From: a virus
Virus record (IMG/VR): IMGVR_UViG_3300034198_008039
Coordinates: 1 to 43,990 of that record
DNA length: 43,990 bases
Direction: 5' to 3' (one strand)
Shown piece by piece: positions 4,084 to 35,984 of this stretch; positions within the stretch are counted from its first letter, which is position 1, and every line of letters starts with the position of its first letter. The notes under the pieces are model-generated. The model was not told where the DNA came from, made no database searches, and worked only from the letters and a program-made list of their open reading frames with translations. A program made the translations under genes and the position numbers.

Positions 4084-4528
4084 TATCAAATCCTTTTTGT
4101 TGTAAATATTTAGCTGAATTAATGTATTTGGTCAATTGATTTTCCAGTTCTTTTCGGCGAATTATTTTGGTTTCTAATTTTGTGTCAATTGATTCTCGAA
4201 AATCAGGACTTTTGCTTCGATTGGCAACCCCCATTCTAACAAATATATCATTGGCAGCATGGGTCAAACGATTGTCTGTGTGCAATATATCACGTGCCAA
4301 ATTGTAATTACAATACTTGTCTGCCACACACCAACTCACTGCTGATCTAGTGGAACTGAATTCACCCACGGCATCTGCTGCACAATACACAGTGTATCCG
4401 GGACGATTGGATGTTATTCTATATTTTCCAAACAACTCATAGTCACCGTGATCATTGCGCCAAATAATGTTGGGCATCACGGTGCGTAATTCTTTTGACA
4501 CCCAGGCTTCTAGTTCTTGGTCTTTCAT
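4034..4528 (-). CDS. Hypothetical phage protein
   Basis: A 164-residue protein not recognised. The N-terminal half has aromatic-rich beta-like sequence (WRNDHGDYELFGKYRI, GYTVYCAADAVGEFSSTRSA) and a WCVADKYCNY segment. The C-terminal third is basic and helical. It overlaps the start of the following gene by 50 bases in another frame, longer than usual here, so the C-terminal end may tolerate change. It begins one base before the stop of the membrane-anchored gene upstream, in a co-directional run. Function unknown. Confidence 0.65.
   Translation of the reverse strand: MKDQELEAWVSKELRTVMPNIIWRNDHGDYELFGKYRITSNRPGYTVYCAADAVGEFSSTRSAVSWCVADKYCNYNLARDILHTDNRLTHAANDIFVRMGVANRSKSPDFRESIDTKLETKIIRRKELENQLTKYINSAKYLQQKGFDNETARSGRTTKNQTSR
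4106..4113 (-). promoter_or_regulatory. T4-type late promoter element (CTAAATAT)
   Basis: CTAAATAT on the minus strand, 23 bases before the ATG at 4083 and spaced from it like other late elements in this window. It lies inside the end of the upstream gene. Confidence 0.45.
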
Positions 4529-4792
4529 TTATTTAAAAACGTAGGAAGCCATTAGCCAACCAATTGCGCCAATCAACATGCCAATCACACCCACACCCCA
4601 GGCAATCAATCTATCGTTGTGTTTTTCCACGTGATCAGCCAACATTTCTCGGATGTCAGCAACACATTGTTCTACCTTGTTGACTTGGTCGGCAAGATTG
4701 TCCAATCGCATATCTAGACTGCTGTAACGTTCTGCACACAGTTCAACGTGTGCTTCTAGACTCTTTTTTTCAATTTCAGTGGTTTCAGACAT
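4529..4792 (-). CDS. Small coiled-coil protein with C-terminal membrane anchor
   Basis: An 87-residue protein. Residues 1-60 are amphipathic and heptad-like (SLDMRLDNLADQVNKVEQCV), followed by one hydrophobic segment (AWGVGVIGMLIGAIGWLMAS) near the C-terminus. This is a tail-anchored layout with the coiled coil probably in the cytoplasm. The ATG at 4792 has an AGGA ribosome site and a late-type element 22 bases upstream; an ATG at 4810 overlapping the previous stop (ATGA) is possible and would add six residues. Similar small coiled-coil/TM proteins occur in many T4-like phages; possible roles in lysis or membrane attachment are speculation. Confidence 0.7.
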   Translation of the reverse strand: MSETTEIEKKSLEAHVELCAERYSSLDMRLDNLADQVNKVEQCVADIREMLADHVEKHNDRLIAWGVGVIGMLIGAIGWLMASYVFK

Positions 4793-4806
4793 GGTTAGTT
4801 TTCCTA

Positions 4807-5220
4807 TCATGTATTTATTTCTGTTGCTTCAAACCATATGTTTGTGTTCACTGCCAAAACTGTGCCATTGACCAATGATTCATTTAATCCTGTCAGCATG
4901 GGCACGCCCTCACAGTCTGCTTTCAACACTGCCAGACTGTCTGTGCCATCTGTAAAAAGATTTTGATTTTCCACTTCAAATTCAAAACACCAACAATCCT
5001 GGTTTTTCACAGGATCTTGTAAATTATCAACCTGTGTACGCAAACTGATCAACTGAGTGACAGTTTCCCAATTGCGTTGTTGATTTCTAGATCTATTCCA
5101 TTGTGCAACGTCAGTTATCTTGGACCCAGCCTGATCTTGAAAAGGCATACGATTGTGTTTGACATGTCCTGTGGTACCTGTGGCAGTGATATCAAAAAGA
5201 GTTTGACATTGAATTTTCAT
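4807..5220 (-). CDS. Conserved phage protein of unknown function
   Basis: A 137-residue protein that starts MKIQCQTLFDITATGTTGH and contains an arginine/asparagine-rich patch (DVAQWNRSRNQQRNWETV) and a beta-rich C-terminus (NQDCWCFEFEVENQNLFTDG). From memory, similar proteins occur in marine T4-like phages without a known role. It is followed by the anchored coiled-coil gene with an ATGA overlap, and preceded by an intrinsic terminator that ends the 5297-5713 unit. How it is transcribed is therefore unclear; readthrough or a weak promoter at the TAAATA near 5230 are options. Confidence 0.7.
   Translation of the reverse strand: MKIQCQTLFDITATGTTGHVKHNRMPFQDQAGSKITDVAQWNRSRNQQRNWETVTQLISLRTQVDNLQDPVKNQDCWCFEFEVENQNLFTDGTDSLAVLKADCEGVPMLTGLNESLVNGTVLAVNTNIWFEATEINT
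4814..4821 (-). promoter_or_regulatory. T4-type late promoter element (AATAAATA)
   Basis: AATAAATA on the minus strand, 22 bases before the ATG at 4792. One base differs from TATAAATA. It lies at the end of the upstream coding region. Confidence 0.5.
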
Positions 5221-5780: not shown

Positions 5781-7661
5781 TTACTCGCCCAAATTGGGAT
5801 TGTTTAAAATTCTGTTGCCTGCCGAGAAACCAAAGCGATTGACCAGTTTGGCGCGACCTGCGTCAGACGCAATGACCCATCCTTCTTGGCCGGGTTGTTG
5901 ACGATCTAGCTGAGCCAACATGTCTGTTTTGATTTCATGTAGTAACAAGAAGGCAGTAAAGGCAGCTGAAATACCATCCAGGTTTGATCTTGGACTCTGT
6001 AGGTATTCCACAATGTTGTTGTACTTGCGCGGTGTCACTGACTGTTGCAACCATGGGCCAAAGTCTGCCAGCAAGTTGGAGTAGTCTGTGTCAATTCTCG
6101 AATTGATATAACGCTTGCATAGCTGTGGCAAATCTGTGATGCCTGCGGCCCGCAAATCAGCAGGATTAAACAGCGAATCAATTGCGGCGCCATTTTGTGC
6201 TACCACACTACGTAATTCACGTTCTAGCTTTCTGTTGGGTGTGACATTTTTGATGTCTTTTTGTGTGGGCTCAATCAACAACAGGCCCGGATGCGGGTTA
6301 AATTCAATGCGTCGGATTGGTTCTGCTGGCGCGGCAGGATCAGCATAACGTGTGTGTACAGCAATGCCCACTTCAGAGTTGCCAATAGCTTCGCCTAACG
6401 TACTGGCAACAGGAATACGATATTCAACAAAATTGGGTTTGAACACATAAGCACCTGCTTGCTCAGGAGGAGTTTCAGTATAAAGTAAATCACCCTGTAC
6501 ATAGCCTTTAAAATTGCTCGGAGTAGCGGCCTCCAACATGGGCCATAGTTTTGCGTAAATGCCAATTAATTCACCACGTTCACCGCTACGCATGTTCTGT
6601 ATGCGTGCCAACTGATCAGGACTGGTTGCTAATCCATCATAGCCCTTGGCCAAAAATCCTGATTTATCTGTCAGCACAAAACGACCGTCGGGTTTGCGGC
6701 CCCAAATGATTGCTGGTTTTCCGTCCCATTTGACTGTGGTTGTTTCTGCTGTGTTTGTGGCGGCTGCTTGAATAATGGCCAGAGCTTCTCGTATGCCACG
6801 GGTGCCTTTTTCAAACACCAGATCTTCAAGATGTTCAATTCTGGCAGCAGCTTCCGTCAACTGTTGACGTTCAAATATAGGAGTCATGCCTTGATTAACA
6901 ATTCTATCTCGTAGACGTGCCAAAAAGTTTACTTCTGTGTATCCGGTAGGTGGCGGTAATTGCATGCCTTCCATAAAAGGCACACCTTCGCGAGCAAAAT
7001 GCTCACGTGCATCTTTTAATTTTGCATCCTTTTTGGGATCTGTCGCCAAGGCTGCTATAATGGATTCTACACTGAGTAAGTCTTCTTTTGTAGCGGATTT
7101 ATTTAAAAGAATTTTTGCAATGGCATCAGGATCATTGGAAATGATTTTGTTTGTGGCACGATCCTGTAGTCCCGCTGTTTGATTTAATTTATAGCCCATT
7201 GATTTGGCCATTGAATTCATCAACACATTACGATCCTGTCCGCGATATGCACTGTCAGAGGAAGCCGATAACATGAATTTTGAAAATGGCACATCTTTTA
7301 AAAACATAAAGTCTGTTTGTACATAGCCTTGATCAGGACGTCCATTGATGGGTGTTTTAAAATGCACTGAGATACCGCTTTTGCGAACGTATTCTTCGGG
7401 CTTTAGTTTGTTTGTTTGTGCCCATTGTGTTAGCTGTGCAACCATTTGTTCTTTGGTGAATTCATTGGCATCCACTGCTAGATCTAGGTCACCAGATGTG
7501 GGCTTGCGTCCTGTTGAACCCAAGGTGGCATCCTGCAGGTCCATGCCTGTGAGTTGTTCTAGCCAAGCTATGGTGCTTCGAACATCTGTTTGATTGATAC
7601 GCTGTGTTAATGCTCGGTTGGAAGCATCTTTGAAGATGTTGCCGCCCTCAGTTATGTGCAT
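5781..7661 (-). CDS. Two-headed nucleotidyltransferase: Pol-beta-type NTase + ligase-like KxDG domain
   Basis: A 626-residue protein. Residues 47-64 read LGSTGRKPTSGDLDLAVD, the complete Pol-beta-superfamily NTase signature (GS, then D58-x-D60), with a likely third carboxylate D117 in YVQTDFMF. A second domain contains TVKWDGKPAIIWG (K311-x-D-G314), the motif I pattern of DNA/RNA ligases and capping enzymes, then FVLTDKSGF, GELIGIY and YVQGDLLY, which could be later ligase-fold motifs. Substrates are unknown; options are RNA end repair, tRNA or protein nucleotidylation. I chose the ATG at 7661 (TAATG overlap with the preceding stop) because MHITEGG is the natural start; a 25-residue extension is possible. 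The N-terminus resembles capsid-targeting peptides. From memory the family is present in marine T4-like phages, uncharacterised. Confidence 0.75.
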   Translation of the reverse strand: MHITEGGNIFKDASNRALTQRINQTDVRSTIAWLEQLTGMDLQDATLGSTGRKPTSGDLDLAVDANEFTKEQMVAQLTQWAQTNKLKPEEYVRKSGISVHFKTPINGRPDQGYVQTDFMFLKDVPFSKFMLSASSDSAYRGQDRNVLMNSMAKSMGYKLNQTAGLQDRATNKIISNDPDAIAKILLNKSATKEDLLSVESIIAALATDPKKDAKLKDAREHFAREGVPFMEGMQLPPPTGYTEVNFLARLRDRIVNQGMTPIFERQQLTEAAARIEHLEDLVFEKGTRGIREALAIIQAAATNTAETTTVKWDGKPAIIWGRKPDGRFVLTDKSGFLAKGYDGLATSPDQLARIQNMRSGERGELIGIYAKLWPMLEAATPSNFKGYVQGDLLYTETPPEQAGAYVFKPNFVEYRIPVASTLGEAIGNSEVGIAVHTRYADPAAPAEPIRRIEFNPHPGLLLIEPTQKDIKNVTPNRKLERELRSVVAQNGAAIDSLFNPADLRAAGITDLPQLCKRYINSRIDTDYSNLLADFGPWLQQSVTPRKYNNIVEYLQSPRSNLDGISAAFTAFLLLHEIKTDMLAQLDRQQPGQEGWVIASDAGRAKLVNRFGFSAGNRILNNPNLGE

Positions 7662-8275
7662 TATACTTTGGCCAATTCTTGATCTAAAAATTTTGTGAAC
7701 GCTTGGTCTGGAACTGTGCCTGTCTGATCTGCCCACACTCCTTGATCATTGATAGTGTATGTTTTGTTTCTAAATTGTAGTACAGCAGGATTGACACTGA
7801 TTACCTTGACTGCTAGGCCACCACCACTGGCGGAAATGTCTGGTGCAGATAGGCCAGCCTGTTGAACTAATTTGGAAAATAATTGTGCCACTTGATTTGG
7901 GTCTGCTTCCGCCGCAGTGATCTGATCAATCAATTGATTGAGTTCTTGACGATTCACAGCGTTATTGATTGATTGTCCAGCCAATAAATTCTTTTGTACA
8001 AATGCTTGCAATGTTTGTTTGTACAGTGTGGCATATCTAGCAGGATCAGGATTGGCTGCTTTTAATTGTCTAGCATACTGTAACCAAGCAGGAACAGCTT
8101 TGTCAATTACTGTTTGCATTTTTTTTGCACTGGCACGGTCAGTTTTGGCATTTATGCTAGCAGCGGTGACATTGCCGCGTTGCTTGGTCAATGCGCCAAC
8201 AGCACCAGCAGCAGCGTTTTTAATACCTTGCAGTATACCAGCTTCATTTAGCTGTGTGATTTCATGAATTTGCAT
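7661..8275 (-). CDS. Unknown protein, possible internal virion protein
   Basis: A 204-residue protein that starts MQIHEITQLNEAGILQGIKN. The first 13 residues follow the M-x-I/L-x-E pattern ending in E-A-G, like T4 head peptides cut by the gp21 protease after glutamate. The rest is alanine- and glutamine-rich and helical (AVPAWLQYARQLKAANPDPA), ending in a beta-like segment (LQFRNKTYTINDQGVWADQT). It is translationally coupled to the two-headed nucleotidyltransferase. Its composition and context fit a protein packaged in the head, but this is inference. Confidence 0.65.
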   Translation of the reverse strand: MQIHEITQLNEAGILQGIKNAAAGAVGALTKQRGNVTAASINAKTDRASAKKMQTVIDKAVPAWLQYARQLKAANPDPARYATLYKQTLQAFVQKNLLAGQSINNAVNRQELNQLIDQITAAEADPNQVAQLFSKLVQQAGLSAPDISASGGGLAVKVISVNPAVLQFRNKTYTINDQGVWADQTGTVPDQAFTKFLDQELAKV

Positions 8276-8545: not shown

Positions 8546-9553
8546 TTAATTAGTGGTTCCACATACATCATTACAAATAACCAAACGACCTTGCTCAAAT
8601 GTAGGAATAGTCCAGGTTTTTTCTACTTCGGTAAACCATTCTATGCATTCTTTTAAAGAATATTCTAACGCATTGTTTTTTTTCATAATGGGTTTCAATT
8701 GAGCGTTTGCAGCTTGGTGATATTGGCCAGCGCCATAAGTGTGTGGGTAAAATCCGGTGTGACAACAGGGACTAACATCACCATTGGCAGCAATATAAAC
8801 ACTGCGTTGTTTTTTGACGGCACATTCTATTTGTCTGGGTATTCTGTCAGCAACAATATCTTCCAACAACACTGTGTCTGTGATTTTTTTATGAAACAAC
8901 ACGGTAAATTCTTTTTCTCCGGTGTAGTTACCCATGACATGGGTCAGCTTGCCTTGTTTGTCAAATACTGGCGCTGTGTTTCTACCCTGATTCACCCGGT
9001 GAAAATTTTTAAATCCCAGAGTTTGACTTAATTTTTCACATTGATCAATTTGATGAAGATTGTGATCAAATTCAATCATTTTCCATGTGGCATGTCCTCC
9101 AGCTTGAATAAAAGTTTGGGCATTTTTAATCACAGTGGACCATGACGTATTTTGTCTGTACAAGTGATGCGTGTCTTCAAGTCCGTCTAATGCAAATGTC
9201 ACATGAACTTGAGCTTGCGCCAATCTCTTCCAAAAATCACCGTTTCTAGCTGATCCATTGGTACTGATCTCAATTGTTAAATCTTTGTTGTGCTGTCGAA
9301 AGTACTCAACAATGTCAGGAGTTTCTGGATTCATCACAGCATCTCCATAGTTGCCATTGATCATGATGACCGTTAATTGAGATAAAAATTCAGGTGTAAA
9401 GATATGTTGAGCATAGTCCACTGTGAAATTCAATTCAGGATAGCCGCCGTTGTATGGGTATCCCCAAAATGTTCTTGGACACCATGGACAACTGGCATTG
9501 CACAGTGTGGATATTTCTAAATGGACATGGCGTATTTCATCAACAGAATACAT
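8546..9553 (-). CDS. Radical SAM enzyme with C-terminal SPASM-like cysteines
   Basis: A 335-residue protein with the radical SAM triad C18-x3-C22-x2-C25 (CNASCPWC) near the N-terminus, which should bind a [4Fe-4S] cluster. The later motif YIAANGDVSPCCHTGF with a preceding C (IECAVKK) and a C-terminal ICNDVCG resembles a SPASM/twitch auxiliary-cluster domain, often found in peptide-modifying enzymes. Substrate unknown. Its start overlaps the stop of the helicase gene (TAATG), so it is co-translated with gp41, an odd place for such an enzyme. It lacks the N-terminal cysteine domain seen in the four radical SAM proteins at 30-37 kb and so belongs to a different subgroup. Confidence 0.85.
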   Translation of the reverse strand: MYSVDEIRHVHLEISTLCNASCPWCPRTFWGYPYNGGYPELNFTVDYAQHIFTPEFLSQLTVIMINGNYGDAVMNPETPDIVEYFRQHNKDLTIEISTNGSARNGDFWKRLAQAQVHVTFALDGLEDTHHLYRQNTSWSTVIKNAQTFIQAGGHATWKMIEFDHNLHQIDQCEKLSQTLGFKNFHRVNQGRNTAPVFDKQGKLTHVMGNYTGEKEFTVLFHKKITDTVLLEDIVADRIPRQIECAVKKQRSVYIAANGDVSPCCHTGFYPHTYGAGQYHQAANAQLKPIMKKNNALEYSLKECIEWFTEVEKTWTIPTFEQGRLVICNDVCGTTN

Positions 9554-10953
9554 TAGAAATTCGCCTTTATTGAACCCAACAGTTGCTTCAATTTGGCACT
9601 CTGTACATCTGCCACCGGTGACACAGTTTCCTCATCACCGGCATCCTGTATTCCCACTCTGCTGGATGCTTTGATTTGATCCATCACGTTGGGTCGTTTG
9701 ACAAATCCTGAACTCTGTTGCTGATCTTCGGCCAAGTCTGTGATACGCATGGTTTCAATGTTGTATTCCAAATCTACCTTTTGTCCAACACCTGTTGAAC
9801 TACGCGATTTCATACACTGAATTTGATAGCGTCCACGCTCTTTCATGGCGCGACTTGTAAAAATACCAAACACGTTGTCAGCAGTGTTAATTTTAGAGAT
9901 ACCACCCGAAATATGACTGTGGTCAAATTCTACTTCTTCCACTGCTCCGCGATTCAACTGTGAAGCTGTGACCAACAATACATTTAATTCTTTGGCTAGA
10001 TTACGTAATTCTTCCGAAACGTATTTGTCTTTTACAAACAAATCATTGGGACTTACTTTGGCACTCACGGGCATCAGCAAGTCCAAATAGTCAACCATCA
10101 CAAAGTCCACCTTTATTCCCGTTTGTACCTGTACCTCTTTAAGATATGCTCTGACATCATTGATATTGCTCTGTGCCGGCAATGCTTTGATTCTATATTG
10201 CCCGGCCTTTTTGCTGTACAGTTTGACCTTTAATTCTGTGGTGTCTATGTCGCGGCGGATGTCTTTGGTGCTCATTCCTGCCAACATAGCATCTGTACGC
10301 AAAGCACACAGTTCTTCCGACAGTTCCAAACTCACATACACGCCACTGAGTCCTTGTTGCAACCAACTCAATGCAATGTTCATCATCACAAGCGATTTAC
10401 CCGATCCGGATCCGCCGGCGAAAATGTTTAATTCGCCGCGGCTGAATCCACCATACAGCAATTTGTCCACTGAGGGCCATCCTGTGGACACCTGCCCACC
10501 CGAATTGAAATACTTTTCCAGACGCATTTTGGGATCATCAAAATAGTCTGTGCCCATGTCCTTGGTCAATGATATCTGTACAGCATCTTTGATCAGTTTT
10601 TCCACAGGATCAAATTCACCCTTTTCCAACAAGTCTGCTGACTTTAAAATTGCACGTTCTAGTTCTTGACGCTTGGTAAATGATTCGAACTGTTCCATAA
10701 ACCAGTTGAAATGATCTTCGTTCAAATCTGGAATATGATTGAGTTTGATACCAGTTGATGCTGCAATTTGTTCTGTAACTGGCATGGTTTTGAATTCATT
10801 TACGTGCTGAGCAATAAACTCTGCTGCTGGACGCAATGATCTATCAAAGTTTTCAGCATTGTAGATGTTTTGTACCCGCACATAACTGCCAGCATCCTGG
10901 AGCATCATTTCCAAGAACAATCTTTGTACTTCAGTTCCGTAGTCTTTTAACAA
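9553..10953 (-). CDS. gp41: Replicative DNA helicase, T4 gp41-like
   Basis: A 466-residue DnaB-family helicase. The N-terminal domain includes VNEFKTMPVTEQI, as in gp41. The RecA-like domain has Walker A GGSGSGKS at 180-187, the Walker B region VDFVMVDYLDLL, and TASQLNRG (sensor). It unwinds the lagging-strand template as a hexamer together with the primase encoded just upstream, whose gene it overlaps. The frame opens with TTG at 10953, preceded by AAGGA at good spacing; no ATG occurs before residue 16. I therefore accept the TTG start, with an internal ATG as the alternative. Confidence 0.93.
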   Translation of the reverse strand: MLKDYGTEVQRLFLEMMLQDAGSYVRVQNIYNAENFDRSLRPAAEFIAQHVNEFKTMPVTEQIAASTGIKLNHIPDLNEDHFNWFMEQFESFTKRQELERAILKSADLLEKGEFDPVEKLIKDAVQISLTKDMGTDYFDDPKMRLEKYFNSGGQVSTGWPSVDKLLYGGFSRGELNIFAGGSGSGKSLVMMNIALSWLQQGLSGVYVSLELSEELCALRTDAMLAGMSTKDIRRDIDTTELKVKLYSKKAGQYRIKALPAQSNINDVRAYLKEVQVQTGIKVDFVMVDYLDLLMPVSAKVSPNDLFVKDKYVSEELRNLAKELNVLLVTASQLNRGAVEEVEFDHSHISGGISKINTADNVFGIFTSRAMKERGRYQIQCMKSRSSTGVGQKVDLEYNIETMRITDLAEDQQQSSGFVKRPNVMDQIKASSRVGIQDAGDEETVSPVADVQSAKLKQLLGSIKANF

Positions 10954-11887
10954 TTTGCTTTTTCCTTAATTCAATCTTTATCTTACTGTGTTCTCGTGCT
11001 TGCATTATAATTAGCAATGCTCCTAGTCTGCCATACTCAATCACTGCATCGTTTACATCTTTTATTTCATCTCCCCACTGGGGCATGCTCACTGACCACC
11101 CTAGTTCAATGGCACGATCCACCAGTTTCATTCCTGCTGCATCTTGATCGGGTACCACAACAACTTCTCTACCCAGACTTCTGATCACCCGTACTTGCGC
11201 ATCGTTAATTTCGGCATGTAGCACTGCCAGTCCTCCAATGCTGAGAGCATCAAATACACCTTCCATGACCAACACTGATTGCCATGCGTTGCGTTGTAGG
11301 TCAGTACCAAACACATACCCGGGTTGCATGTCATTTAGATATTTGGGGGTACGATCGTCTAGAAATCTGGTACAATTTCCCACCACTTGATTGTCATGCG
11401 TGAATGGAATAACAATGCCTGGACGTGGTGTTGCCTTGAACAAAAATGGATAGTCCAAACTGATACTTCTACGGTTCAAATATTCTATTGCTTGTGCTGA
11501 CAACTCTTCAGTGTCTGCAGGTAAATCACGTTCTTCAAATTCGATATCCACTGGCTTTTCAACTAGCTGTCTAGATTCTAAAATACCATTAATTGATTTG
11601 TGTCGTAGACTTTCTAAGTTAATACGTTCTATTTCTTCCTGGGGAACCATTAACCATGACAAAAACTTGCGTGCTTTGAATGTTAAATTACGCCCCAACA
11701 CAAAGCTGGCAGTATATCCACAGTTAAAACAATGATAGCTCCATCCTTCCTCGCCGAGCTTCAATCCGCCACGCGATCTTCGATCTTGGTTTTCACCATT
11801 GTGTACACAACAAGGTGCATTGAAACTTATCCAGCCCGAACTTGATGTCTTACGTCGAGCAGGTAGATAAGCGAGAATGTCTAGCAT
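10931..11887 (-). CDS. gp61: DNA primase, T4 gp61-like
   Basis: A 318-residue primase. An N-terminal zinc-binding region has C26, C27, H29 and the pair C53-x2-C56 (HCFNCGY). The TOPRIM domain has E209 in VLVMEGVFDALS and D247-x-D249 in VVVPDQDAAGM, the metal-binding residues. It makes RNA primers for lagging-strand synthesis with gp41, whose gene it overlaps by 23 bases. An SGNH-type gene ends inside its first codons. The layout SGNH-primase-helicase-radical SAM is a single tight transcription unit. Confidence 0.92.
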   Translation of the reverse strand: MLDILAYLPARRKTSSSGWISFNAPCCVHNGENQDRRSRGGLKLGEEGWSYHCFNCGYTASFVLGRNLTFKARKFLSWLMVPQEEIERINLESLRHKSINGILESRQLVEKPVDIEFEERDLPADTEELSAQAIEYLNRRSISLDYPFLFKATPRPGIVIPFTHDNQVVGNCTRFLDDRTPKYLNDMQPGYVFGTDLQRNAWQSVLVMEGVFDALSIGGLAVLHAEINDAQVRVIRSLGREVVVVPDQDAAGMKLVDRAIELGWSVSMPQWGDEIKDVNDAVIEYGRLGALLIIMQAREHSKIKIELRKKQIVKRLRN

Positions 11888-13795: not shown

Positions 13796-14173
13796 ATGGG
13801 CAATGACATCTTTACCAAACTTGCAGACAAATATCCTTTTATAACTTTGTGTATCTACGCCACCACAGAATATGTGGGAATTATACAAAACAAAGACGAC
13901 ACTATCACCACGATTTACGATTTTGGCAGCATACAAGATCCGGATTTGAAACGAGAATTTTTGGAATTGGCCAATGTATGGTGGTGGGAAAGCAACAGAT
14001 CAATTCCTATCAATATTTTCCTAAAATCTGAGTGGGATCCATTCCGAGCCTATCTCAAAACATTTGTAAACAAGGATTTGGAAGTGGTCCACGGACCTGT
14101 GTGCAGTCTTGTTGATATGGCTCGTAAAAAGAGCAAACGCAAGAGTATTACACTGGTTCGGCGGGTTGACTGA
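13796..14173 (+). CDS. Conserved phage protein of unknown function (lone plus-strand gene)
   Basis: A 125-residue protein with KYPFITLCIYATTEYVGIIQ, a tryptophan-rich core WWWESNRSIPINIFLKSEW and a basic C-terminus (ARKKSKRKSITLVRRVD). I recall similar WWWESNR proteins in marine T4-like phages, function unknown. It is the only plus-strand gene in the first 22 kb; it diverges from the fibre gene and converges on the DnaE-like gene with a 26-base tail overlap. The basic tail could bind nucleic acid (inference). A TAAATA lies 10 bases before the ATG, which seems too close for a promoter with a normal leader. Confidence 0.75.
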   Translation: MGNDIFTKLADKYPFITLCIYATTEYVGIIQNKDDTITTIYDFGSIQDPDLKREFLELANVWWWESNRSIPINIFLKSEWDPFRAYLKTFVNKDLEVVHGPVCSLVDMARKKSKRKSITLVRRVD

Positions 14174-14726
14174 GCAAGTTCATATGCAAAGTCACCAGCA
14201 TTGCATATCCCAGGCTGTGAGCTTTTTTAAACACAAATCCTCGACTGGCATCGCCATCCCAAACTGATTCAAATACTTCGCTCCAGGGTCGACCTTGCAA
14301 ATGAGCCTTGCCCGGCCTAATGATTGAGATAAATGCTGCCATTCTAGGTATCGAATCTGGCTTCATTTGTTTCAGTAATTCTGCGTAATTGCCCACGTGA
14401 ACCAGTTGTTTGACCCACTCTATATCTGTCCACAAGCGTGCCCAATTGGGTTCTTTGTTCAACATAGTTTGATAATGCTCGGGACTCTTGACCAGATTGT
14501 ACACACTCATATTGAGCAAGTCTATTTTGAAGTAGCCACGTTGTTCAGCTGTTTCATAGTCTATGGCCGCACACTGATTCACTGGATCGTAGGGTATGCC
14601 TGTGACATAAACACCTGAGTTATGACGGCGTACTTGCCCTTGATGCATTTGTCTGGCCGGAATAGCCTGTATCAACTTTAACAGTTGATCTCTATCGGCC
14701 AAGTCCAAATCAATATCTGCACTCAT
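14148..14726 (-). CDS. Miniature DnaE-like protein (DNA polymerase III alpha palm/fingers motifs)
   Basis: A 192-residue protein in which blocks align by eye and in order with bacterial DnaE. ADIDLDLADRDQLLK (D4, D6) matches the PDxDxDF catalytic block. VRRHNSGVYVTGIP matches the GKHAGGVVIAP block. AAIDYETAEQRGYFKIDLLN (D69) matches the block carrying the third catalytic Asp (VKFDFLGL). PDSIPRMAAFISIIRPGK matches the FRPGP block. FKKAHSLGYAML matches FNKSHSAAYAL. DnaE is over 1100 residues, so nearly everything else is gone: no PHP domain, beta-binding or OB domains are seen. Whether it polymerises, acts as a nucleotidyltransferase or is structural is unknown. Its start overlaps the stop of the zinc-finger gene (TAATG). 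Confidence 0.75.
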   Translation of the reverse strand: MSADIDLDLADRDQLLKLIQAIPARQMHQGQVRRHNSGVYVTGIPYDPVNQCAAIDYETAEQRGYFKIDLLNMSVYNLVKSPEHYQTMLNKEPNWARLWTDIEWVKQLVHVGNYAELLKQMKPDSIPRMAAFISIIRPGKAHLQGRPWSEVFESVWDGDASRGFVFKKAHSLGYAMLVTLHMNLLSQPAEPV

Positions 14727-16622: not shown

Positions 16623-18098
16623 TTATTTTAACTTCATCCACTCAAGTTTTTCTTGTGTAAAAGGGTACTTGGCTTCTTTGTAAAACTGCTTGCGTTTGGT
16701 CAAATGACGTTTGGCAAACTTGCAGGTACTGGTTAAATCCCAGATCTGCACAAAGTCTTTGTCTTCGGCTTTTCTAATACCTCGTCCTATGCTTTGAATT
16801 ACCCGAACAAAACTCTTGCCAGGTTCCACCAGCACAAGATTAAATATGCGAGGAATATTGATACCCACAGCAGCCACTCCGTAGGTGGCCACAATGATTT
16901 TATCATTGACGTCTGCCACTTCATCGTATTCTTCCTTTCGGTCCTTGGCCTTGGTAGCACCCGACACAAACACAGCACGTTCACCTAGTCTCTTGACCAG
17001 CTCTTGCCCAGCGGCCACACGATCTACCAACACCAGAGTATTTCCAGTTTCGTTTACTCGAGCAATCACACTGGCCATAGCATCCAATCTGCCAGACTCT
17101 TCCAACAGGTATTTTAATTCACTTTGATAGTTTGAGTATTCTACATGATCCTGTAACTGCACAATGTTCACGTGACAATTCGATAAGTGGCCCATTTCTT
17201 GTAGTTCGCTGGCTGCCAATCTTGAAATTACTGGACCAATACTGACATGTAGGCTTTGGAACTCAAACTGTTCTTTGGGCACAGTACCGGTCAAGCCCCA
17301 ACGAATAGGAATACGGCTCATTACACCTGTGAGCAATGACTTAAGAGCATCCGCTTTGGCCATGTGTACTTCATCTACCATAACACATACCACATCCTCA
17401 ATAAACTCTGTGATTGTGCAATCTTCTGCGGCAGAACCCTTCTTGGTATTCTTCAGCAACACATTCAAACTTTGCCAAGTACAGATGGTATGTGTGCGTC
17501 TCCACTCTTTTCTATCACCAAAGTAAACTCCCACATCCAAGCCCATGTTGCGATAGTCATCTTCTGTTTGGGTTACTAGACTTTTGTTGGGCACAATCAC
17601 AATGGTACGCCCATAGGGTTCACATCGTTGACTCAAGGCCGCTGTCATAATTGTTTTGCCAGCGCCAGTGGCAATCTCTTGCAAGCACTGTGGATTTTTT
17701 AAAAAGTTGTTGACTATGGCGCATTGGTAGTCACGCATCATTATGGGTTTGCCGGCGGCAGGATGCTTCTCGGGCCATAACACATGAGCAAAACTGTCTT
17801 CGGCCACAGGTTCAAAGTCAAACACAGTCTTGTATTCGCGTTGATCATCTAGCTCAATGTCGTAGTTAAACTGTTCTAGTATAGGAATAATCTCGGGCAA
17901 CAAGTTTACATAAGTGCTACCGCCCAGTTGAAAATAACTGACTTTGCCATCCCACCGTCCCAGTCTCACTGCCGGAAGATATCTAGCATAAGGTACGTCG
18001 TATTTGAATTTGTTAACCAGAGCTTTGCGTGCATCAAGTTCTAGTCCTTCAATCTTGATGTTTACTTCGTCTCTGATTATAATTGTTGCTGTTCTCAT
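16623..18098 (-). CDS. uvsW: RNA-DNA/DNA helicase UvsW
   Basis: A 491-residue superfamily 2 helicase. The N-terminal part (ARYLPAVRLGRWDGKVSYFQ) is the UvsW-specific domain. Walker A ATGAGKT is at 143-149, the DEVH box at 242-245, GLTGT follows, and motif VI is QSIGRGIRKA. T4 UvsW unwinds R-loops and branched recombination intermediates and helps switch replication from origin- to recombination-dependent mode. Its start overlaps the stop of the unknown gene at 18095 (ATGA). Length matches T4 UvsW. Confidence 0.95.
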   Translation of the reverse strand: MRTATIIIRDEVNIKIEGLELDARKALVNKFKYDVPYARYLPAVRLGRWDGKVSYFQLGGSTYVNLLPEIIPILEQFNYDIELDDQREYKTVFDFEPVAEDSFAHVLWPEKHPAAGKPIMMRDYQCAIVNNFLKNPQCLQEIATGAGKTIMTAALSQRCEPYGRTIVIVPNKSLVTQTEDDYRNMGLDVGVYFGDRKEWRRTHTICTWQSLNVLLKNTKKGSAAEDCTITEFIEDVVCVMVDEVHMAKADALKSLLTGVMSRIPIRWGLTGTVPKEQFEFQSLHVSIGPVISRLAASELQEMGHLSNCHVNIVQLQDHVEYSNYQSELKYLLEESGRLDAMASVIARVNETGNTLVLVDRVAAGQELVKRLGERAVFVSGATKAKDRKEEYDEVADVNDKIIVATYGVAAVGINIPRIFNLVLVEPGKSFVRVIQSIGRGIRKAEDKDFVQIWDLTSTCKFAKRHLTKRKQFYKEAKYPFTQEKLEWMKLK

Positions 18099-29737: not shown

Positions 29738-30186
29738 ATTGTGATATCCTCCATTCCTGCTGTGCGTAATCTCACAATGTGCCCCATTTGCCATTGTTTG
29801 GCATCTAACCCTTTGAGTATGCCCAGCCACTTGTTGCGTAACAGTGCTACTTCGTTGATAATGGTTTCAAAGTCAATGACTTCGTCTTCGCCGTCTACGT
29901 ACTTTTCAGCATCGCGACTGGTCAGTGCTCTAGCATATGCTTCCAAATATTTTTGAAAGTGTCGACGACGAATTTTACGTAATTGTATATTGAGAAAGTT
30001 AAGCACCGCTTCAATTTCTTGTAACTGATTGAAACGATGCTCAGTGATACCCGGCAACGCAGAGATGTTTTTCTCTACCAAGCCACCTATTCTACAATCA
30101 CGCTTGGCATCTCCTAACTCTCGTTCGTAGTGTTGAATAAAATCAGGAATGTTGCCCAACGATGCTACAACTTTGCTATACCACAT
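29734..30186 (-). CDS. Conserved phage protein of unknown function
   Basis: A 150-residue helical protein: MWYSKVVASLGNIPDFIQHY, GITEHRFNQLQEIEAVLNFL, RRRHFQKYLEAYARALTSRD and KYVDGEDEVIDFE. From memory it is highly conserved in marine T4-like phages, which would make it a core gene rather than part of the surrounding accessory genes. Size and helical, basic/acidic character could suit a recombination or replication accessory protein such as a UvsY-like mediator, but I see no specific motif. The ATG at 30186 overlaps the previous stop. Confidence 0.75.
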   Translation of the reverse strand: MWYSKVVASLGNIPDFIQHYERELGDAKRDCRIGGLVEKNISALPGITEHRFNQLQEIEAVLNFLNIQLRKIRRRHFQKYLEAYARALTSRDAEKYVDGEDEVIDFETIINEVALLRNKWLGILKGLDAKQWQMGHIVRLRTAGMEDITI

Positions 30187-31465
30187 AATTATCCATATAT
30201 TGTTTTTCAATCTCTATAAGCCAAGGAAACAACTCTCGCCAGTTTGTGCCACGGCGTTGATCTTTTTCATTTATGTATATTAACATTTTTTTGATTTCTT
30301 GCCAATCTCTTTGGTGATTAGCAATGCCCTTTCCTATACCTTCGATGTAGTTACAAATCACCTGATCCTCGTCAGTATCAATTGGCATGGCAGACACTAT
30401 CTTTTGAAAATCTTCCTCAAACACACCAGGTCCAAAATGTTTGGGTATAAAATAAGATGGGTCTGGGGATATAGTTCCGCTATATAGACTTACATGACGA
30501 ACCTGTCTCCACTCTTTTAATTTATGCATAAGTTCGGGCGCAGTTTTAATAGTCAGAGGACTAAAGACTTGATTCAATGCCAGTTTGATCCATTTTTGAT
30601 CCAATAGATATCGAAAATTTTTCTCCCAGTGTACCAGGTCCAGTCCATATCTTACATATTCTTGTTGGGGGCCCCAACAATCAATACTGGCAAGAATTTG
30701 TAAACTTTTGAGTTTACGATTGATCAACAATTTCCTAATTTTAACAATGTACTTTTCTAACAATGCCGGCGGGATCATCAAATTAGAAACTATATTTAAT
30801 TCACAATCTGCATTAGGAAACTGATCTACATAGTCTAAAATTTTGTCAAATTCTTTTTGAAAAAAAGGTTCTCCGCCTAGTATGTTCAGGCGGCGCAGAT
30901 ATTTAAACTCTTTTTCAAACCATTGTTGAAATGCAGGTAACAAATCTGTATAGCGAGGCTCCTCGACAACCTCAAGAGCTGCGAATTCAATTTCCTGAAT
31001 TTTAGATTGCCCAAAGCGACGATTTTCGTTGTTGATTGTACTACTCAGATCTGGAGAACAATACAAACAACTTAGTTGACAGGTATTGTTTAAAAAAACT
31101 TCAACTACCACTGGTTTTATTTCTACAGCAGTAGAATTTTGATCTAATTCCCGAGGATACATATTTGGTATGCTTAGATGCCACAATCGATCACTTACGC
31201 CACCAGCTGCCTCAATTTCTTTACAGTAATGGCATGTTGCTCCTTGTTTACCGCCGGGCCATTCGCCGGCTAACATTTTTTTTCTGTCTGCTATTTTTTC
31301 TGGAGTATTGTGGAAGTTATGAAAGTTTTCAGGAGTTAATTTACTTTCACTAGAGCGATAACACGACCTAGTGATACCAGAATTGAGTAGCAAGGTGCTC
31401 CAACTCCATTTGAGTTGGCAAGCGGTTTCAGTGTTAATAGGAAAGAATTTTTTTTCAGATGTCAT
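30176..31465 (-). CDS. Radical SAM enzyme with N-terminal SPASM/twitch-like domain
   Basis: A 429-residue protein. The radical SAM triad is C129-x3-C133-x2-C136 (CQLSCLYC), with RRLNILGGEPFF as the SAM-contacting GGEP motif. Before the barrel there are C16, C35 and C78-x2-C81 (CHYC), with spacing like a SPASM/twitch auxiliary cluster but at the N-terminus. It shares this layout with the genes at 31462, 34839 and 36523. Such enzymes modify peptides or small molecules through a radical; the substrate is unknown. It starts with an ATGA overlap with the radical SAM gene upstream. Confidence 0.85.
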   Translation of the reverse strand: MTSEKKFFPINTETACQLKWSWSTLLLNSGITRSCYRSSESKLTPENFHNFHNTPEKIADRKKMLAGEWPGGKQGATCHYCKEIEAAGGVSDRLWHLSIPNMYPRELDQNSTAVEIKPVVVEVFLNNTCQLSCLYCSPDLSSTINNENRRFGQSKIQEIEFAALEVVEEPRYTDLLPAFQQWFEKEFKYLRRLNILGGEPFFQKEFDKILDYVDQFPNADCELNIVSNLMIPPALLEKYIVKIRKLLINRKLKSLQILASIDCWGPQQEYVRYGLDLVHWEKNFRYLLDQKWIKLALNQVFSPLTIKTAPELMHKLKEWRQVRHVSLYSGTISPDPSYFIPKHFGPGVFEEDFQKIVSAMPIDTDEDQVICNYIEGIGKGIANHQRDWQEIKKMLIYINEKDQRRGTNWRELFPWLIEIEKQYMDNYVV

Positions 31466-32610
31466 TGTGTTTGATTGACCCAGTCTATAAATGAGGTTGG
31501 AAATATCTGTAACGATAAATTTCTTCTTCTTGCAAATTCTTTAATGTAAGTTACAAAATTTAATTTCTGTTGCTTACTGTATCCACTGTCTAGTGCTGTT
31601 TTAATCAACGAATCGTTCCATTGATACTTAGTTAATTTTAGATTGGCAACGGAGTCTGAATCCATTACTCCAACAGCAAGATAATCAGGATCGTTACAAA
31701 ACTGTACTGTGTTGTTGTCTTGTCCAAACTGATCTTCGAATTGTTGATATCCAAATAGTGTGAGATTAGTCAGAGTGACGGAAAATCTATACGGTATACC
31801 ATGTTGTTTGATAATCTCCATATTTTTCAAAAAGTTCTGATAAGAATTTCCATACCGAACAAACTCATACAAATCACCAGTGGATTCCCCGCTGATTACT
31901 AAACTTATATTGCTTTTTAATTTGTCAAGAATGGCAGAAAATCTCACTGGGTTAACTCCTAATCCTGTGAAAATTTCTATCGGACTTGAAAACTTATTTG
32001 TTAGTTCTTCTAGCCCGTTATACAAAAAAGGCTCTCCGCCGGTAATAGATATTGACCTTAGATTTTTGAGTTGCTCAGTTGAATCTAAAATGACTTTGAC
32101 TACTTGACTGTTTTTAAGCTGTTTCTGCCCAAGAGCTTCAATGATACGATCTTCAATATTGATTGTGTATCGTGCATCATTTAGATAAGATCCATTGGTC
32201 TGTATGTCTTTGTACCATGCGTTGCTATATTGTTTGCAACAATAAACACAAGTCATATTGCAGGCTGTACTCAGTACAATGTTTAATACCTCGGGCTCGG
32301 CATAGACTGCATTGTGTGTTTGAACTTGACCATTCATGCTCGTTCGACGACTTACAGCCAACTGATCTTCTGCGGCCCAACAATTGGCTTCACATGAAGC
32401 CACACGAACTCCATTGAGCATATTTTCTCGATCTTGTACTAATTCCGGAGTATTAAATATTTTTTCTGGATTTTGTTCAAGCCATTTTGTATTAATTGTG
32501 TAAGGACTGGCAGAACAACATGATGAAAGATTTTTACGTTCTAAATTTACAGTCAACCACCAAAATTTTTGATTACAATAAAAATCTTTAATAATCGTTT
32601 TCGTCTTCAT
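31462..32610 (-). CDS. Radical SAM enzyme, same group
   Basis: A 382-residue protein with radical SAM triad C117-x3-C121-x2-C124 (CNMTCVYC) and RSISITGGEPFLYNG. N-terminal cysteines C12, C31/C32, C73 and C77 suggest an auxiliary cluster. The recurring YEFVRYGNSYQNFLKNME resembles segments in the genes at 30176 (YVRYGLDLVHWEKNF) and 34839 (YIRYGGRWVDFLENL), showing common ancestry. The ATG at 32610 overlaps the end of the acidic-tail gene by 23 bases; longer frames are out-of-frame readings of that gene. Coupled to the next radical SAM gene. Confidence 0.83.
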   Translation of the reverse strand: MKTKTIIKDFYCNQKFWWLTVNLERKNLSSCCSASPYTINTKWLEQNPEKIFNTPELVQDRENMLNGVRVASCEANCWAAEDQLAVSRRTSMNGQVQTHNAVYAEPEVLNIVLSTACNMTCVYCCKQYSNAWYKDIQTNGSYLNDARYTINIEDRIIEALGQKQLKNSQVVKVILDSTEQLKNLRSISITGGEPFLYNGLEELTNKFSSPIEIFTGLGVNPVRFSAILDKLKSNISLVISGESTGDLYEFVRYGNSYQNFLKNMEIIKQHGIPYRFSVTLTNLTLFGYQQFEDQFGQDNNTVQFCNDPDYLAVGVMDSDSVANLKLTKYQWNDSLIKTALDSGYSKQQKLNFVTYIKEFARRRNLSLQIFPTSFIDWVNQTQ

Positions 32611-32842
32611 CATACTCGTCTTCGTAGTCTTCCTCGTCGTCCTCGTCGGCATGATCATCAAGATACTGTTTGAGTGCTTGCTTGACTTCGCTGTCGCTTT
32701 TAAACGCAGATTTGATTTCTTCGACACTGACGTCGTTGTCAATCAATACACTGACCAATGCTTCGGCAGCTTCGGCACGATCCATGCCGTTGACGTAACG
32801 TTTGATTTCTTGCCAAACTTCATTTGCTAATTCTACTGCCAT
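32588..32842 (-). CDS. Small protein with strongly acidic C-terminal tail
   Basis: An 84-residue protein. Residues 1-60 are helical (AVELANEVWQEIKRYVNGMD, VSVEEIKSAFKSDSEVKQAL). The last 20 residues are almost all D, E and Y. It lies one base downstream of uvsX. Acidic tails next to recombination genes often recruit partners or mimic DNA, as the gp32 tail does in T4; that role here is inference. From memory it is a conserved small protein of marine T4-like phages. Confidence 0.75.
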   Translation of the reverse strand: MAVELANEVWQEIKRYVNGMDRAEAAEALVSVLIDNDVSVEEIKSAFKSDSEVKQALKQYLDDHADEDDEEDYEDEYDEDENDY

Positions 32843-33909: not shown

Positions 33910-34842
33910 TTAATTTTCCTTAATAAAATTGTATAACTTTTCTGCATACTGTTGATGTTGCTTGACTCCAGGATGCAAATTGTCTGTTCCTAAATCTATA
34001 AACTTTATAGTATTTCCATTTATAATTAATCCCTGTGTTAAATCTATAAAATTGGGTAAGTCTTTTAATGCTATGCTGACCCAAGCAAAATCTAAAATAT
34101 TTGCAATGTATAATTTTACTTTTATTTTTTGACAAAAATTTACAACTTGTAAAATTTCTCTCAATGAAGTTAATACTTGGGTCTCGCTTTCAAAATAATC
34201 AAGTGACCAATATTGATTTTCTTTGTCTACTGTGAAATAATCACTAATAGGTACTGGATTAAAATTCCAATTTTTTGATATTGCAACCCTAGAAACGTTA
34301 GTTAATCCCCAAACTACTATATCTCCAGATCGTATATCGGATCTCAACAACTGATCAGCAGCCCAAAAAATTGAGGATCCTCCTTGTGATAATGTTATCT
34401 CGGGTAAATTTAAATAGTTGGCCAGTAAACTTCCCCATCTATCATTGTAATCAACACCGTTGCCATGCGTTACAGAACACCCAGCAGTCCATAAAACTGG
34501 ATTGTTATCAGTCCTTGTATTTTTTAAAAAATTAAAATCTTTTTTCCAAGTAAAAAAATTAATCTTACCAGGGTGTCTTGCAAGTTCGTTAAACAGTCTC
34601 CCATATGAAAAACAATTATCATTTGTAATATTAATATCCTCAGTGAGGTTAACCACTACAATTTCACTAGCATTGCTACATGCCACACTGATGTTTTCAC
34701 AAGATAGATCTTCTACCGATGTGTGACAATTTACATCGGTGCTGCTAGCAACAATTTTATCTATGTTATGTCTGTCAAGCAGTATAGAATCGTTACCATT
34801 CCAGTCATAATTAACGGTTGAAATATATAATTTATTAATCAT
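33910..34842 (-). CDS. SGNH-hydrolase-like protein, diverged
   Basis: A 310-residue protein. The first 110 residues have no known motif. Then WTAGCSVTHGNGV is a variant block I (GCSxTxG), followed by ITLSQGGSSIFWAADQLL, IVVWGLTNVSR and DNLHPGVKQHQQYAEK (block V, with the likely catalytic His). This type is seen in proteins that act on glycans or in secondary metabolism. It is visibly more AT-rich than the uvsX gene behind it, which suggests later acquisition. It overlaps the radical SAM gene at 34839 by four bases. Confidence 0.7.
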   Translation of the reverse strand: MINKLYISTVNYDWNGNDSILLDRHNIDKIVASSTDVNCHTSVEDLSCENISVACSNASEIVVVNLTEDINITNDNCFSYGRLFNELARHPGKINFFTWKKDFNFLKNTRTDNNPVLWTAGCSVTHGNGVDYNDRWGSLLANYLNLPEITLSQGGSSIFWAADQLLRSDIRSGDIVVWGLTNVSRVAISKNWNFNPVPISDYFTVDKENQYWSLDYFESETQVLTSLREILQVVNFCQKIKVKLYIANILDFAWVSIALKDLPNFIDLTQGLIINGNTIKFIDLGTDNLHPGVKQHQQYAEKLYNFIKEN

Positions 34843-35984
34843 TTTAATTTGTATAACTCTGTAAAAATCTTGCTGCTGTCTATTCCACGTCGTTGATCCA
34901 TTGCGGCTAACTGTTCAAAAGATCCAGCTAAATCTTTTTCAAACGGTTGCTCTATATAACTCAACATATTTTTGTAGCTGTCCTCGAGCAAATAACCCGG
35001 TTGGTCAGTGATTCTTTGTTGTATTTGATACTTTATTGATTGTAACACATGTTCTGGCAAATGTCTAATATTTAGGTATTCTGGAGTCAATAATGCACCA
35101 ATGATAAAACTGTTGTTATGAAACCCTAAATTTTTCAAATAATCCACACAGTCAAACACGGAACGATGATTTAACAGGAACCAAAGCATGTTAAAACTAA
35201 TTTTATGGTTTAGTTGTTTTATCTTTTGCAAATTTTCTAAAAAATCCACCCAACGGCCGCCATATCTGATGTATTCAAATGCATCGGTAACAGTTTCCAC
35301 ACTGACGGTCCAATGTACATTGGGAAATTCACAAATTCGATCAAATACCTGTGTGTCTGTTTTACTCAAATTGGTGTTGATACGTAGGTTTACATTAGGA
35401 TTGGTTTTTTGCAACAGTTCCAATAGTTCTAAATTTTCTTTCATCAACAACGGTTCGCCGCCGGCCATGTACACATGTTTGAGTGTGGATGCATGATCAA
35501 AGATATATTGTTTAAAACTTTCCAGTTGATCAAGGCCAGGGCGCACTATTTCTTCGTTTAATTCGTCGGCCCAGCGACTGCTAAATTCGGGGCTACAGTA
35601 CACACAAGAGAAATTGCACAAATTAGTCCACCGCACATCAATGGTATGCAAGTCATGTTGATTGGGTTGGTACGTATCCAATGGTATTTTTTTAAGTTCT
35701 TTTATGTAAAAAATTCTGTCACTGATAATATCAAACCCAGTTTTATTGCCTTCAAGATCATAACAAGTGTGGCAGTTTTTTCCAGGTTGATTGGTCAGCA
35801 TGCGTTGTTGAGTATCAAGATTGGTGGTGCCGTGTAGAATTTCTTTGATAGTGTTATCTTTGAGATTACCTATTGTTCCTGAACTACGAATACAATTTTT
35901 TACTTTGCCGTCAACATTGTACATCAGTCCAGTCCATGGCATGGGGCAAAAATTACGATTGGTCAATACGTCTTTTGGAGTCAT
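34839..35984 (-). CDS. Radical SAM enzyme with N-terminal SPASM/twitch-like domain
   Basis: A 381-residue protein, the clearest of the four. The N-terminus NFCPMPWTGLMYNVDGKVKN followed by CIRSSG, then CHTC (C13, C31, C71, C74), reads like a textbook SPASM half-domain placed before the barrel. The radical SAM triad is C123-x3-C127-x2-C130 (CNFSCVYC); HVYMAGGEPLL is the GGEP motif. NCBI-type twitch-domain radical SAM proteins have this layout. The stop of the SDR gene is three bases upstream, and the SGNH gene follows with an ATGA overlap, so the three may share a pathway. Substrate unknown. Confidence 0.88.
   Translation of the reverse strand: MTPKDVLTNRNFCPMPWTGLMYNVDGKVKNCIRSSGTIGNLKDNTIKEILHGTTNLDTQQRMLTNQPGKNCHTCYDLEGNKTGFDIISDRIFYIKELKKIPLDTYQPNQHDLHTIDVRWTNLCNFSCVYCSPEFSSRWADELNEEIVRPGLDQLESFKQYIFDHASTLKHVYMAGGEPLLMKENLELLELLQKTNPNVNLRINTNLSKTDTQVFDRICEFPNVHWTVSVETVTDAFEYIRYGGRWVDFLENLQKIKQLNHKISFNMLWFLLNHRSVFDCVDYLKNLGFHNNSFIIGALLTPEYLNIRHLPEHVLQSIKYQIQQRITDQPGYLLEDSYKNMLSYIEQPFEKDLAGSFEQLAAMDQRRGIDSSKIFTELYKLK

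Follow-up and report, generated by a model that had tools for sequence, protein, structure and literature searches.

A split, minimal DNA polymerase III (Pol III) alpha subunit was described in 2021 in the jumbo phages of group 2.2, which carry an NTP-binding N-terminal half (N-half), a Mg2+- and template-binding C-terminal half (C-half) and a B-family polymerase alongside, with the other Pol III domains absent (PMC7824862). Jumbo phages of group 3.2, such as phage G and c-st, likewise encode a C-family polymerase, but theirs is a full-length DnaE, a PHP-containing, host-like single chain that defines the replication system of the group (PMC7824862). A possible functional analogue is DnaE of B. 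subtilis, a second polymerase beside the main replicase, but again full-length; it extends RNA primers and then hands off to PolC (PMC5627055). Our literature search, which covered open-licence papers, found no experimental study of the split Pol III family.

We analysed a 43,990-nucleotide stretch of virus DNA (IMG/VR record IMGVR_UViG_3300034198_008039; hereafter, the window). Relative to the group 2.2 phages, the window represents an uncultured relative of which only the C-half is in hand. The C-half is encoded on the minus strand at 14148..14726, in an open reading frame that starts with ATG at 14726 and specifies 192 residues; as in the split minimal Pol III alpha, it is a separate small gene. 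From N to C terminus, the protein contains DIDLD at residue 4, RHNSGV at 34, YFKIDLLN at 65, RPG at 137 and FKKAHSLGYA at 166. The reading frame and the five ordered Pol III alpha blocks reported in an earlier, sequence-only reading are thus all present. When the protein was shuffled 200,000 times, the five blocks never appeared in order; this serves as a sanity check only, the block patterns having been composed after the match was seen. Searches of Pfam, NCBIfam and, with the single sequence, the PDB gave weak or no matches for the protein alone, so that profiles were needed. In profile searches, the protein matches PHROG_11778, annotated 'DNA polymerase', with E = 2.9e-53, and the full-length DnaE-type family PHROG_405 with E = 3.2e-6 over residues 50–141. 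The C-half is under purifying selection, with a dN/dS of ~0.12 against its nearest relative and values of ~0.1 or saturated for other pairs. It is a further member of the split Pol III family known since 2021; the group 2.2 proteins are the same as those considered here (PMC7824862), and named members of the group, Atu_ph07 for one, turned up in our search as carriers of C-half homologues.

Structural comparison also points to the C family of polymerases. A PDB search with the C-half family profile returns Pol III alpha chains only, each match being weak (E = 0.14–0.68) but collinear. The AlphaFold model of the C-half has a mean pLDDT of 82, and when it is searched by fold against the PDB, the top 16 matches are C-family polymerases, with noise thereafter. 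The best match is the T. aquaticus ternary complex 3e0d (E = 0.015, probability 0.99); the fold matches cover parts of the polymerase and are individually weak. With C-family polymerases ranking first in both profile and fold searches, the proposed DnaE homology of the 192-residue protein is upheld, and the comparison favours DnaE over a protein lacking DnaE matches or having a palm unlike that of Pol beta.

Across the C family, residues D401, D403 and D555 (E. coli DnaE numbering) are absolutely conserved, D405 is conserved in DnaE but not in PolC (PMC3919608), and H760 of E. coli DnaE is the steric gate that keeps ribonucleotides out (PMC8485763). In the alignment to E. coli DnaE, D4, D6 and D8 of the C-half, which lie in the DIDLD motif (14703..14717, minus strand, positioned from the translation), correspond to D401, D403 and D405; H35 corresponds to H511, K67 to K553, D69 (codon 14520..14522, minus strand) to D555, R137 to R639, and H170 in FKKAH (codon 14217..14219, minus strand) to H760. 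In an alignment of 106 homologues, a number that takes in the window copy, the three metal-binding aspartates D4, D6 and D69, the DnaE-type D8 (Asn in PolC) and the steric-gate H170 are present in 106/106. Equally invariant are H35, G38, P45, A60, K67, Y76, W95, P123, I136, R137, P138, K140, W156, F166 and K167. The three catalytic aspartates pointed out from the sequence alone are therefore borne out as D401, D403 and D555 equivalents, and the third aspartate of DIDLD is D405. Since the equivalents of D401, D403, D405, D555 and H760 are invariant, the active-site parts borne by the C-half are, as judged from sequence, intact and DnaE-type. The likeness to bacterial DnaE extends to H511, K553, the RPG motif and the FxKxH motif that contains H760, and to a GRGS motif in the partner protein.

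The C-half is nevertheless a strongly reduced DnaE. It begins three residues ahead of the catalytic DxD and consequently lacks the palm strand before that motif and the GRGS loop; the GRGS triphosphate-binding element is not found in the C-half chain and is supplied in relatives by a separate gene. The thumb is mostly deleted, D403 and D555 being 152 residues apart in E. coli versus 63 for D6 and D69 in the C-half. The segment of the fingers from RPG to the steric-gate helix is 121 residues long in E. coli versus 33 in the C-half, and LRRAMGKK is gone. Because the thumb and most of the fingers are missing, the halves may bind DNA and triphosphate poorly without partners. PHP and (HhH)2 domains are nearly universal in C-family polymerases. 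In the 11 carrier genomes searched, we found neither PHP (PF02811; 0/11, controls positive 14/14) nor (HhH)2 (PF14579; 0/11, controls positive 11/14). Compared with bacterial DnaE, the phage pair thus lacks the PHP, HhH and further C-terminal parts, is cut before D401, and amounts to ~365 residues in all versus 1160.

The N-half of the relatives is a protein of ~170–180 residues (~175) with a GRGS motif. Pfam family DNA_pol3_alpha (PF07733) finds this small gene in all eight reference jumbo phages with scores above the cut-off, and with a sub-threshold score in a relative of the window that is 149 kb long. The N-half aligns to residues 210–393 of E. coli DnaE (E = 2.3e-6), its PDB profile matches are all Pol III alpha except one with E ~1 (E. 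coli span 321–393), and C-family polymerases head the fold matches of its AlphaFold model, although the E-values are weak. Residues R104, E108, L121, G139, G141-R142-G143-S144, V146, S148, L151, Y164 and E170-F171 are common among N-halves, and G139, G141–S144 (G-GRGS) and E170-F171 are invariant. Because the N-half stops at about residue 393 of E. coli DnaE and the C-half starts at about 398–401, by D401, the alignments identify the two proteins as one palm cut in two. Among the homologous C-half loci examined, no open frame is long enough to hold both halves, the longest being 242 residues. In 121Q, Phosso, the 149-kb relative and Slickus01, the N-half adjoins a GroES/gp31-like gene, as judged from translations. 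An N-half inside the 44-kb window was considered and rejected after a window search that found none; from the relatives, we infer that the genome to which the window belongs carries one.

The two halves occur together in a nearly one-to-one fashion. Of 50,697 phage records, 90 contain the C-half and 94 the N-half. The tallies by organism name are equal for phages of Escherichia (34), Pseudomonas (11), Salmonella (8), Erwinia (8), Xanthomonas (3), and Agrobacterium, Cronobacter, Pectobacterium and Serratia (2 each), and are 11 C-halves versus 10 N-halves for Klebsiella. Weak surplus N-half matches probably fall in full-length phage DnaE, such as that of Thomasclavelia phage TR-TP2 (annotated DNA polymerase). 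The 90 records with C-half homologues are nearly all jumbo phages (~28–43% identity), and homologues are present in 319 virus-contig stretches; both counts require coverage of at least 80% of the C-half protein. Single-sequence queries recover far less in viral contigs, with only 19 loci for the N-half and only 4 for the Phosso C-half. The 11 matches in genome contigs, considered as possible bacterial carriers, are all in MAG records, several of them on short contigs; these are most likely misbinned phage, and we claim no cellular carrier.

Two virus contigs of 320 and 337 kb each carry an N-half, a C-half and a B-family polymerase, with the two halves ~100 kb apart. Since their C-halves are 78% and 75% identical to the window copy, respectively, the window is most likely part of a jumbo phage genome like theirs. 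A B-family polymerase gene was not found in the 44-kb window, but each of the eight reference jumbo phages also has one, as does Slickus01. The contrast drawn in the sequence-only reading, between a DnaE-like protein and the B-family polymerase expected of a T4-type phage, is accordingly a real one, as the relatives do carry such an enzyme. In Pseudomonas phage vB_Pa-PAC2, B-family polymerase matches lie in two open frames ~2.5 kb apart (202949-206726), a layout that points to a polymerase gene that is interrupted or split.

The earlier description of the split pair covers jumbo phages. We find the pair also in Alishewanella phage Slickus01, a complete, circular, non-jumbo genome of 141.6 kb, in which the halves lie ~11 kb apart and contain the motifs DVDID, KVD, RPAK and FKKSH (C-half) and GVGRGSS (N-half). 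Slickus01 also has a B-family polymerase and a similar gene block and, like the eight reference jumbo phages and the two large contigs, gave no match to PHP or HhH. The split system is therefore not limited to genomes above 200 kb. Relatives of 111–152 kb were dropped as further medium-sized genomes, being classed as linear and possibly fragments. The B-family polymerase matches of Slickus01 fall in two adjacent open frames (W09:C1:3596-4198 and 4339-5100), so that this gene, too, is possibly split or interrupted.

In the window and the references, the C-half lies in a conserved block with the order UvsW, small genes, PHROG_11058, C-half, convergent PHROG_11637, a structural-like protein, primase and DnaB helicase. 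Specifically, the window encodes on the minus strand a UvsW-type helicase (16623..18098) at the upstream end of the block, the conserved small genes PHROG_11279 (16086..16586) and PHROG_11758 (15397..15846), the C2H2 zinc-finger protein PHROG_11058 (14726..15397, assigned by profile and synteny) and, downstream of the C-half, a DNA primase of T4 gp61 type (10931..11887) and a DnaB-like replicative helicase of T4 gp41 type (9553..10953). The plus-strand PHROG_11637 (13796..14173), a ~120-residue protein with a basic, KR-rich tail, lies directly downstream of the C-half, as it does in 8/8 reference jumbo phages. In the window, its 3′ end runs 26 bases into the C-half, and in 7/8 references the overlap is 4–20 bases; in Vibrio phage 2.275.O, the two genes are 6 bases apart with no overlap. 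Around the C-half gene, a search for DNA repeats gave only one 12-mer pair, which is at chance level.

The zinc finger is backed by a profile match to Gfi-1 (E = 1.2e-4). In the window, the stop codon of its gene overlaps the C-half start in the sequence TAATG, which suggests coupled translation of the two; in most of the jumbo phages, a small gene lies between them. A profile search with the zinc-finger family retrieved C2H2 fingers and a few weak matches to unrelated proteins but nothing from Pol III, and the zinc-finger gene was rejected as the missing half for lack of DnaE similarity. The partnership suggested from the sequence alone thus survives in part: the zinc-finger protein is a conserved neighbour of the C-half, but is without polymerase homology, and the half that is truly missing is encoded beyond the window.

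Elsewhere in the window, genes for Fe-S cluster assembly stand in a row on the minus strand at 1818-2826, an unusual phage cargo. The row consists of genes for an IscU/NifU scaffold (Pfam NifU_N, E = 1e-52) and for an A-type carrier (Fe-S_biosyn, E = 5e-15), which flank the gene of a second small protein whose end shows a similar C-x-CGC pattern. The 44-kb window also encodes at least four radical-SAM proteins on the minus strand (8546-9553, 30176-31465, 31462-32742 and 34839-35984), and these proteins might be served by the Fe-S assembly genes of the phage itself. A 651-residue protein with the uncharacterised domain DUF6267 (E = 5.5e-34) is encoded at 5781-7736 (minus strand).

We consider it probable that the C-half is the catalytic part of a two-subunit, minimal C-family polymerase of T4-type, mostly jumbo, phages, acting beside the B-family replicase. 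The N-half would contribute a strand and the GRGS loop that binds the incoming nucleotide triphosphate, and the C-half the three metal-binding aspartates, the steric-gate histidine and the template-holding part of the fingers. The halves would assemble into a single palm, broken just ahead of the DxD, and the assembled enzyme is predicted to be active and to incorporate dNTPs. C-family palms have the Pol-beta nucleotidyltransferase fold, reduced fingers could loosen template dependence, and the block lies near the UvsW and UvsX recombination genes, all of which would also suit assembled halves working as a template-free nucleotidyltransferase, in end tailing, adenylylation or ligation-like repair, like other enzymes of that fold. 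We regard this as unlikely, as the RPG-ending fingers segment and the steric-gate helix, which position the template and the sugar, rank with the most strongly conserved regions. That the C-half alone could be a minimal polymerase, primer extender or transferase, as put forward in the sequence-only reading, runs against the finding that its chain starts at the DxD strand and that in relatives a second, co-occurring gene supplies the GRGS palm element. The TAATG coupling to the zinc-finger gene, the zinc-finger homologues in the same block of jumbo phages and a similar CxxC protein in Slickus01 would fit a stand-alone C-half aided by the zinc-finger protein, but that family has no Pol III match, and such an arrangement is very unlikely.

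The losses relative to DnaE could also mean that no working polymerase is formed. The phage already owns a B-family replicase, and with the thumb, most of the fingers and the PHP and HhH regions missing, the halves might be a mimic that binds host Pol III parts (clamp, tau, epsilon) or primer termini and disturbs host replication. Such a decoy, also raised from the sequence alone, is disfavoured because the metal-binding aspartates and the steric gate are invariant in the 106 homologues and the halves co-occur; these residues and the invariant GRGS loop of the N-half would be superfluous for a decoy, and the clamp- and tau-contacting regions of DnaE are among the missing ones. We therefore judge it quite unlikely. 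Least probable of all, and already contradicted by the conservation data, is a functionless, decaying remnant of a captured host dnaE: large deletions would be expected of it, but the gene is present in more than 300 virus-contig stretches with an invariant active site and a dN/dS of ~0.1, and its size and gene order are kept across phages of diverse hosts.

The two-subunit polymerase would most likely serve as an auxiliary primer-extending or repair DNA polymerase. Most speculatively, it would carry out distributive synthesis beside the primase and helicase, extending primers before handing off to the B-family enzyme, a role that we propose the pair may have by analogy with B. subtilis DnaE. 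Alternatively, and also speculatively, it would fill gaps linked to recombination-dependent replication; the gene neighbourhood fits both roles alike. A more specific and tentative idea, which we hold to be doubtful, is that the thumbless enzyme is a dedicated primer-extending polymerase and a Pol alpha-like partner of the primase, with the zinc-finger and convergent basic proteins as DNA-binding subunits that replace the thumb.

To the family described in 2021, our analysis adds the break point, the conservation of the steric gate and D405, the near one-to-one co-occurrence of the halves, the lack of PHP and HhH domains, a replication gene block that is conserved, and a carrier that is not a jumbo phage. 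With more than 300 contig stretches, the family is common in environmental phages. We know of no C-family polymerase that approaches the small size of the ~365-residue pair, should it be active. If so, the pair would reveal which DnaE regions catalysis can do without, and would be a naturally occurring example of a phage replication system that combines replicative polymerases of bacterial type and of the B family.
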